Shown here one piece after another: positions 8,413 to 61,200 of a DNA stretch of 64,000 nucleotides (positions are counted from its first letter, which is position 1; each line of letters opens with the position of its first letter). Below the pieces are notes generated by a model. It was given only the letters and a program-made list of their open reading frames with translations, was not told where the DNA came from and did not search any database. The stretch is taken from positions 62,001 through 126,000 of the forward strand of contig CABJAN010000007.1 of the NCBI GenBank assembly GCA_902363515.1, in the 5' to 3' direction. This DNA is from Bacillota bacterium (GTDB taxonomy: Bacteria; Bacillota; Clostridia; Lachnospirales; Lachnospiraceae). The translations under genes were made by a program, and so were the position numbers.

Positions 8413-8463
8413 AACTATCACAATCATATTATAATGGATTAGTCTAAGCCTTATAATATCTTC

Positions 8464-8562
8464 CTCTATGATTCCTACGCCGGCATTACCCGGATCAGGT
8501 ATATGGGTCTAAAACGAATCGGTTTTATTCTCAGCCGGACTTCACCAGCTCCCCTAACGTGT
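8464..8562 (-). promoter_or_regulatory. TPP riboswitch aptamer (THI element)
   Basis: Read on the minus strand, the aptamer has the conserved GGCTGAGAAT pyrimidine-sensing segment and later ACCTGATCCGGGTAATGCC followed by GGCGTAGGAA, the classic thi-box. It lies directly after the promoter at 8567-8595 and before the terminator at 8376-8412. The operon should be repressed when thiamine pyrophosphate is abundant. Confidence 0.95.
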
Positions 8563-8566
8563 TTAC

Positions 8567-35128: not shown

Positions 35129-35536
35129 ATGAGTGACGAAACTTATACAGCAAATTTAGAAAGCTGCAATCCAAGTGATTGTGCATCCTGTACAGCCAAC
35201 TGCTCCAGCGCCGGAGGACAAAATCAGGGAACCATTCCAAATGTTCCAAACCCAACCATTAAATTAACACTGGACGATGATTCTGTTTTAGAATGTGCTG
35301 TTTTAACCACTTTCCCGGTGGAAGAATTTGGGGAATACATTGCGTTAGTTCCTTTAAACAAAGATGGGAAAAATACTACAGGCGAAACCTATCTGTTCCG
35401 CTATGCAGAAGAAAATGATAACCCGGTTATCACCAATATTGAACGGGAAGATGAGTACATGGCAGCAGCAGAAGCCTTCCATGACTTCATCGCAAACCTG
35501 AAAAGCGAAACAGAACTTTCCGAAGAGGATAAATAG
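35129..35536 (+). CDS. DUF1292 protein with Cys-rich N-terminus
   Basis: 135 residues. Residues 11-27 contain four cysteines (CNPSDCASCTANC), a possible metal site. The rest is a DUF1292 (YrzB-like) domain, IKLTLDDDSVLECAVLTTFPVEEFGEYIALVPL followed by YLFRYAEENDNPVITNIEREDEYMAAAEAF. DUF1292 proteins are small, acidic, common in Firmicutes and of unknown function. The four-Cys extension is not part of the core domain. The gene is followed by the structured element in the terminator at 35545-35711. Confidence 0.85.
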   Translation: MSDETYTANLESCNPSDCASCTANCSSAGGQNQGTIPNVPNPTIKLTLDDDSVLECAVLTTFPVEEFGEYIALVPLNKDGKNTTGETYLFRYAEENDNPVITNIEREDEYMAAAEAFHDFIANLKSETELSEEDK

Positions 35537-35544
35537 TGAAGCTG

Positions 35545-35711
35545 AAAAGTAAGGGACTGTCGTATGATGACATAACATTTCGGAATATTTATACAGTTCC
35601 GGCGAATTTGCCGAGTACCCTTTGAGACTACAGGTTCAAAGGGAGCGCAGGCTGAGCTGGAAATGTATAAATATTCTCTATATGTCTTTCGTGCAACTGC
35701 CCCTTACTTTT
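35545..35711. repeat. Structured intergenic element, copy A, nested in a terminator stem
   Basis: The outer stem AAAAGTAAGGG (35545-35555) pairs with CCCTTACTTTT (35701-35711), and GACATA (35569) with TATGTC (35681). The core is a long stem, GAATATTTATACA (35583-35595) with TGTATAAATATTC (35664-35676), plus TTCC/GGAA. Inside are GGC-GAATTT-GCC (35601-35612), CCCTTTGA/TCAAAGGG (35618-35643) with TACAG in the loop, and a GCGCAGGCTGAGC strand. Copies B and C share these loops. Its right arm contains the dut stop. Confidence 0.75.
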
Positions 35712-36219
35712 TAGTTGTACTTCCTAAACCGCCATTTCTCACTGCTGTGGCATCATCATCTTCCGTAATGCCGTATTCCAGGAAAATCCCTTGGGCAAAT
35801 CCGGTTCCGGCAGCCACATTTACCGTTTTTCCTTCATTGGAATCATTGGTAATTTTTATAAAAATGTGACCCTCATTGTCTGAATAAAAATAGTCGCTGT
35901 CAATAATTCCTACCGTATTATTTAACTGCAAACGATATTTAAACCCAAGACCGCTTCTCGGATAAATCTTTAAGACCCATCCAAGTTCCATTTCTGCCCG
36001 GATACCGGTTGGCATTTTCAGTGTTTCCCCTGGTTTCAGTTCAAAATCCACAGGGCTGAAAAAGTCATAGCCAGCGCTTCCTGCAGTAGCTCTTTTGGGC
36101 AGCTTAATATTTTCATAAATGCTTTTGATGGTTGCTTCCTCTGTGCCTGGAAAAGCATCCTTCCAGCCTTCTAAAAATTGTTCTTCACTTACCTTATGAA
36201 ATTTTGCAATCCGTTTCAT
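35704..36219 (-). CDS. dut: dUTP diphosphatase (trimeric dUTPase)
   Basis: 171 residues. Motif 1 is AGSAGYDFFSP, motif 2 is YPRSGLGFKYRLQLNN, motif 3 is GIIDSDYF (catalytic Asp), and the C-terminal arm is RNGGLGSTTKK, the nucleotide-covering motif 5. A 40-residue N-terminal extension precedes motif 1. It converts dUTP to dUMP and pyrophosphate, keeping uracil out of DNA. It starts 8 bases after nrdG, so two deoxynucleotide genes are co-transcribed. Confidence 0.93.
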   Translation of the reverse strand: MKRIAKFHKVSEEQFLEGWKDAFPGTEEATIKSIYENIKLPKRATAGSAGYDFFSPVDFELKPGETLKMPTGIRAEMELGWVLKIYPRSGLGFKYRLQLNNTVGIIDSDYFYSDNEGHIFIKITNDSNEGKTVNVAAGTGFAQGIFLEYGITEDDDATAVRNGGLGSTTKK

Positions 36220-56713: not shown

Positions 56714-56785
56714 GGTTCGTTGGTCAAGCGGTTAAGACGCCGCCCTCTCACGGCGGAAACACGGGTTCGATTCCCGTACGAACTG
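56714..56785 (+). tRNA. tRNA-Glu (anticodon CTC)
   Basis: A complete cloverleaf. The acceptor GGTTCGT pairs with ACGAACT (first pair G-U), the D arm is GTC/GAC, the anticodon stem CCGCC/GGCGG holds the loop CTCTCAC with anticodon CTC, and the T arm ACGGG TTCGATT CCCGT is standard. The discriminator base is G at 56785. The CCA end is not encoded. It decodes GAG. Confidence 0.95.
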
Positions 56786-61120: not shown

Positions 61121-61200
61121 GATACCGTTTGGACGAATCTGTCGATTGCGCCTTGAAATTACAGTCTCAAGGTGAACGCAGACTGAGCGTAAACGGTATC
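61121..61200. repeat. Structured intergenic element, copy C
   Basis: The outer stem GATACCGTTT (61121-61130) pairs perfectly with AAACGGTATC (61191-61200). Inside: GAC-GAATCT-GTC (61132-61143), CCTTGA/TCAAGG (61151-61172) with TTACAG in the loop, then GAACGCAGACTGAGC. Stems differ from copy A but remain paired, while loops are shared. On the minus strand a TTTTTTT run follows, so it can terminate lepB transcripts. Confidence 0.8.

Follow-up and report, generated by a model that had tools for sequence, protein, structure and literature searches.

Among known systems, the REP/RAYT elements are dispersed imperfect hairpins. Hairpins also serve as targets of transposition: Furi et al. (2016, PMC4923244) report for IS1272 and TnSha1, which belong to the IS1182 family, that integration takes place in either orientation at hairpins, many of them terminators, and that part of the hairpin is lost bluntly, with no target duplication. 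Here, we describe a repeat family with two copies, A and C, in the window, that is, in the whole 64-kb stretch of DNA that was analysed. With a probability of about 0.78, the family is non-autonomous, MITE-like mobile DNA of the IS1182 type, in which a palindrome of ~150 bp surrounds a folded 54-nt core. The observation is mainly a mobile DNA element, rather than an orientation-specific RNA, and its mechanism is a variant of the known IS1182-type hairpin replacement. The family is real, high in copy number, and probably undescribed; no described element of this kind was recognised in the open-licence literature, where absence is not proof of novelty.

Anatomy and distribution of the repeat

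The initial annotation had presented copies A and C as a conserved RNA structure of no recognised class, and both are present where it placed them. The motifs GAATYT, TACAG, and GCAGRCTGAGC, which it listed as common to the two, were confirmed in the window, and Rfam indeed holds no family for either copy at gathering or permissive thresholds. Copy C gave a Glutamine-II hit of 19.6 bits (cut-off 33) and an ilvH hit of 23.6 bits (cut-off 55.1), both of which are far too low and do not recur in copy A. Elsewhere in the window, Rfam families reach their gathering score at just two places, a TPP riboswitch (8453-8565, minus strand) and a tRNA (56714-56785, plus strand). Copy A runs wider than the 35583-35676 first proposed (Table 1), with boundaries fixed by its arms and by analogy with site S5, described below. 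On its left, an ORF ends at 35536; on its right lies a minus-strand ORF (35704-36219), whose end at 35704 places its stop codon on the first bases of the right terminator arm. The orthologous intergenic site of copy A, downstream of the neighbouring ORF, was not recognised by eye in 12 relatives.

Table 1. Coordinates of the two copies in the window and of their parts.
Feature	Position	Strand	Description and basis
Copy A, whole element	35553..35703	+	151-bp imperfect palindrome; ends GGGACTGTCG.. / ..CAACTGCCCC
Left host terminator arm AAAAGTAA	35545..35552	.	sequence; partner is 35704-35711
Right host terminator arm TTACTTTT	35704..35711	.	sequence
Copy A conserved core, 54 nt, at apex of palindrome	35604..35657	+	pattern and model match
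Copy A, P2 helix, 5' side, GCC	35610..35612	+	pairs with 35650-35652; two-sided family changes
Copy A, P3 apical stem, 5' side, CCCTTTGA	35618..35625	+	two-sided changes
Copy A, P3 apical stem, 3' side, TCAAAGGG	35636..35643	+	two-sided changes
Copy A, P2 helix, 3' side, GGC	35650..35652	+	two-sided family changes
Copy C	61121..61200	+	core in short arms GATACCGTTT / AAACGGTATC; sequence, 62.2-bit model match, neighbours
Copy C conserved core, 54 nt	61135..61188	+	pattern and model match

The ends of copy A are close to IS1182-type ends, which are absent from copy C, and the history of C is therefore less certain. The pattern TACAG-N6-14-GCAGRCTGA has two matches in the window, a number reached in none of 100 shuffles. 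Single-strand folds of both strands of A and C (89 to 148 nt) gave z values from -4.03 to -7.56, each of the four being better than all 200 shuffles. Copy A scored 74.6 bits with model R1, against the tabulated score of copy C, and the model found no third window copy; R1 was built from 26 sequences that include A and C, so that high scores of these members arise by construction.

In Blautia, the element is typically a ~150-nt imperfect palindrome in which an outer stem (GGRGCTGTCGCATTA/TAATGCGACAGCYCC) is followed by an internal loop, a middle stem, and the core. Many Blautia copies have their outer and middle stems in common; by eye, those of G001 and G003 follow the same plan with different stem sequences, and window copy C and the L116 locus are among the copies with unrelated arms. 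At L116, L123, and L095, which represent a single orthologous position in three genomes, the element is a tandem dimer with a spacing of ~146 bp, and the arms differ yet pair. The element carries no transposase gene of its own: the copies measured are 148 and 151 bp long, and no ORF of at least 80 aa was called within copy A.

A genome collection was scanned with the pattern GAATYT-N15-23-TACAG-N9-17-GCAGRCTGAGC, and 24 of the 33 stretches returned are true copies by inspection, from Blautia species or bins, Candidatus Egerieimonas, one uncultured Firmicutes bin, and one Merdivicinus bin. Nine chance stretches (two from Sphingomonas and one each from Acidocella, Photobacterium, Anaerolineae, Dyadobacter, Siphonobacter, Chromatiales, and Rhodobacteraceae) were removed before alignment, and the 24 were combined with window copies A and C into alignment A1 and model R1. 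The covariance-model search proposed in the initial annotation did reveal further copies with covariation, up to 79 per genome. In the 11 genomes reached via the loci, the number of matches ranges from 1 to 79 (E up to 0.01); with the limit set at 0.001, there are 79 in Candidatus Egerieimonas (G001), 39 in Blautia sp. Marseille-P3201T (G003), and 19 in G311. Among 20 genomes of the genus that includes Blautia sp. An81 (G004), 13 have the element and seven have none (E up to 0.0001), and weak copies are found in two of five genomes of a second genus. It was detected in 3/299 genomes of a family-wide and 3/392 of an order-wide sample, both lower bounds, since the filters were strict and 12 to 15 candidates were scored in each genome. 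Neither copy A nor copy C was matched in phage and plasmid collections, and 17 pattern stretches in viral_contigs were all judged chance by eye.

Some loci have features of their own. At seven places in G001 (L127-L133), two or three copies lie within 1 kb, in (-,+) order at six of them and in a repetitive non-coding stretch at several; no shared gene and no autonomous element was found between the copies of these close inverted pairs or groups. The sole copy of the Merdivicinus bin G009 (L043/L052) lies in a stretch that has 99% identity to the G004 site and is near-identical to one from a bin of Candidatus Blautia pullistercoris (L032/L063), which is probably bin contamination.

Replacement of terminator hairpins

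The mobile-element reading follows from a decisive clean empty site, S5, with the same integration mode as that published for IS1272. Eight copies were compared with their orthologous sites across 14 genomes, wherever a match was found. At S5, a plain hairpin occurs in G002 and G006 and a 148-bp copy stands in its place in G004; 33 nt (ACGCAGCTACAGAATCAAGCTCTGTAACTGCGT) were replaced with no target duplication, and the flanks are identical at 59/60 and 50/50 positions. This is the only clean empty site, and none was found at the further comparison sites. S3, S4, S6, and S8 are less clean and are consistent with it: each has a plain terminator in at least one relative, and some outer bases are retained around the element, an agreement that may partly stem from the element's own GG/CC ends. 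The view that the element inserts into terminators, already put forward in the initial annotation, is supported by these comparisons, most cleanly by S5. S2 and S7 have core-less palindromes in relatives, which we read as remnants and which could also be precursors. At two sites a new copy lies within the apex of an older copy, and un-nested orthologues exist. A site in G010 and G011 resembles hairpin replacement, the hairpin of G011 being possibly a remnant itself, and site 1 in G008, seemingly empty, proved to be a remnant without its apex.

Host bases beyond the outer stem show more left-right complementarity than shuffled ones. Of 110 copies from outside the window, 21 were usable, their outer stem fitting a strict pattern; in these, 7.86 of 14 positions are left-right complementary against 6.24 after shuffling, a value reached in 0/2000 shuffles. 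A first terminator test was weak: 39/108 copies and 31/108 controls have a T run at the end of one or the other arm. With a wider search range the counts were 60/108 and 30/108, and 26 and 4 for T runs on both sides; the range was picked after the first test, which makes this the weaker evidence.

The ends of the element resemble IS1182-type ends of related genomes, with GGGGCTGTCG in common. Such ends are GGGGCTGTCGGGAAAT in G313 (six copies), GGGGCTATCGGGAAAT in G007, and GGGGCTGTCGCACTAA / TTAAAGCGACAGCCCC in G311. The outer stem GGRGCTGTCGCATTA has 10 bases in common with the G313 end, and the G311 end GGGGCTGTCGCACTAA agrees with the commonest outer-stem form, GGGGCTGTCGCATTAA, at 15/16 bases. 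At the remaining IS1182-type loci, the two ends either were not both found or are different, such as AAGGGCACTGAAAAA at one G003 locus, and the conserved core was not found in any IS1182-type locus examined. A match to a transposon end, which the initial annotation had named as counting against its proposal, was thus obtained for the outer stem and not for the core. G313 has the six insertion-sequence copies and lacks the element; one of the six is flanked by AAAAGTAAGGGG/CCCCTTACTTTT, resembling the terminator around copy A, and the flanks do not pair at all six. IS1182-type genes (PF13751) were found in five of 12 genomes searched, namely the carriers G003, G004, G007, and G311 and the non-carrier G313. 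They were not found in six carriers (G001, G002, G006, G008, G010, and G011), and metagenome bins, of which there are several among the carriers, may miss multi-copy insertion sequences.

On this evidence, the element would consist of inverted IS1182-type ends (GGRGCTGTCGCATTA / TAATGCGACAGCCCC) enclosing the conserved folded core. An IS1182-type transposase, presumably acting in trans, would insert it either way round into hairpins, mostly intrinsic terminators. The stem-loop would be swapped bluntly for the element without target duplication, as is seen at one clean site and consistent with four less clean ones. The product would be a longer two-way hairpin that may remain able to act as a terminator. 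Copies would later change by paired substitutions, loss of the apex, and nested insertion of new copies, all of which are seen in relatives. Window copy A would be such an insertion; copy C may, with less certainty, be an older or rearranged copy of which only the core is left in a plain terminator. The core is probably a folded single strand, putatively bound by the transposition machinery or by a host protein.

The conserved core and alternative readings

The core has the plan GAAUYU-GYC-GA-GC..., apical stem, ...GC..-A-GRC-UGA. Several details of the initial annotation were revised here. It had taken GGC/GCC around GAATTT as a conserved pairing; the conserved helix P2 joins G-Y-C (35610-35612) to G-R-C (35650-35652), and GAAUYU sits in an internal loop facing UGA. 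TACAG had been regarded as a constant loop, and the apical-loop columns of the family vary among 108 sequences, in which the internal loops are nearly invariant and the stems covary. The inner-stem pairing held, and the length assigned to it in copy C did not, being 8 bp (CGCCTTGA/TCAAGGTG, with one G-U), equal to copy A.

Covariation itself is strong. In the 26 sequences of alignment A1, two-sided changes occur at 14/24 pairs, and none of five measures was reached by any of 500 shuffles. A wider alignment, of 112 matches (108 distinct) drawn from 80 fetched loci and the window, has 94.5% of its cells paired, with two-sided changes at 19/24 pairs; it was fitted to the model and is thus biased towards the structure. 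The 16 orthologous comparisons show no broken pairs, a result that is built in since the pairs are defined by the fold itself. The covariation reported in the initial annotation stands; its use as the mark of a functional RNA as such is not supported, in view of strand-neutral copies, an antisense copy C, and an IS1182-like outer stem.

The core is more conserved than its surroundings. Over 14 orthologous comparisons, some of which share a locus, global alignments with indels counted gave an identity of 699/755 (92.6%) for the core, 497/605 and 503/599 for the arms, and 6092/8110 (75.1%) and 6456/8106 (79.6%) for the flanks. This conservation above the flanks is left unexplained by the mobile-element reading, and so are copy C, whose arms are without IS1182-type ends, and the copies of G112 and G320 in another genus, which lack IS1182-like ends and consist of a core of ~46 nt in near-perfect, locus-specific arms, ~15 to 30 bp long by eye; a T run was seen by eye at the end of none of these six. 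Either the core is a separate unit, or the arms were rebuilt by fold-back template switching after insertion. A tentative alternative, with perhaps one chance in four, is that the 46-54-nt core is a separate unit, a putative protein-recognised folded strand that is older than the IS1182-type ends and can be independent of them, forms the apex of hairpins whose arms are unrelated in two or more genera, and is selected after insertion. Beside a full copy, locus L085 of G112 contains half a core, the right half only, between the short, pairing arms CCTCCCC/GGGGAGG. Next to the RR-side copies of G112 and G320 (L266/L291), both genomes have a second long hairpin, separate from this repeat family, with the apical palindrome TGGTCAGCTGACCA and arms GACCGTTTCCGG.. 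/ ..CCGGAAACGGTC.

Better conservation of the core at orthologous loci, together with invariant internal loops and covarying stems, would also be expected of a conserved 3'-end or regulatory RNA whose structure is selected after transcription, dispersal being secondary. On the core strand, G-U mismatches are in mild excess of A-C ones (95 and 42 cells), which points the same way, 37 of the G-U cells being at one pair. Such an RNA is nevertheless improbable, because the gene context lacks a consistent strand. Neighbours were assigned by simple longest-ORF calls, and 104/112 copies are flanked on both sides: 54 lie between convergent genes, 22 in sense and 21 in antisense between co-directional genes, and seven between divergent genes. 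Among 129 background gaps of at least 60 bases, taken by the identical method from 20 stretches of G011 and the window, 19 are convergent and 22 divergent; the binomial tests on context assume independent copies, and some are orthologous or paired. Location at gene ends without strand preference argues against a cis-acting RNA. The T run of copy C is on the minus strand, the strand of both called neighbours, so that its core is antisense. High copy number, patchy presence, and the lack of an Rfam match also disfavour the RNA.

A still slimmer chance attaches to DNA fold-back template switching as the process that makes or keeps the arms palindromic, with paired changes being mutational and the core the fold-back point. 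The near-perfect arms of G112 and G320 differ at each locus pair, and at the araC-side site of G112 a loop that occurs once in the core-less G320 is present again, inverted, as the right arm. Two variable apical-stem pairs show no wobble intermediates among the 108 sequences. Against this, many Blautia copies share outer and middle stems, and S5 is a clean replacement; template switching may act on top of transposition, not instead of it. Movement as a REP-like element, through recognition of folded single-stranded DNA by a Y1 (IS200/RAYT-like) transposase, would suit dispersed imperfect hairpins with bulged stems and insertion at hairpins, and it is very improbable, as Y1 genes (PF01797) occur in 7/16 carriers and 4/10 non-carriers (G001, G002, G003, G005, G006, G008, G312, G318, and G319 being the carriers in which none was found) and the blunt stem-loop replacement at S5 fits IS1272 instead.

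Significance and comparison with known systems

The preferred reading, IS1182-type mobile DNA, exposes a pitfall for RNA discovery: strong covariation with constant loops can signal a mobile DNA palindrome and not an RNA. It also adds a further, abundant case of terminator-hairpin replacement as a mode of transposition, with natural empty sites. If the core does have its own partner, some gut Blautia would have one binding site at dozens of gene ends per genome. If the core is a separate unit, a transposon family would have been turned into dozens of protein-bound hairpins, placed at the ends of genes throughout the genome.

Like REP/RAYT elements, the present element occurs as dispersed imperfect hairpins; it differs in having IS1182-type ends, and Y1 was not found in 9/16 of its carriers. 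In being short, non-coding, high-copy, intergenic, and hairpin-forming, it resembles the MITE-like Correia, RUP, and ERIC elements, as portrayed by Delihas (2007, PMC2229807), from which it differs by its IS1182-type ends, the replacement of terminator hairpins, and a core retained as the arms change. With IS1272 and TnSha1, as described by Furi et al. (PMC4923244), it has in common the targeting of hairpins, most of them terminators, the blunt loss of a stem-loop, the lack of target duplication, and insertion in both orientations. Those two elements encode a transposase, whereas the present one is ~150 bp long with no called ORF of at least 80 aa in copy A, and it is palindromic over its full length, with a conserved folded core.
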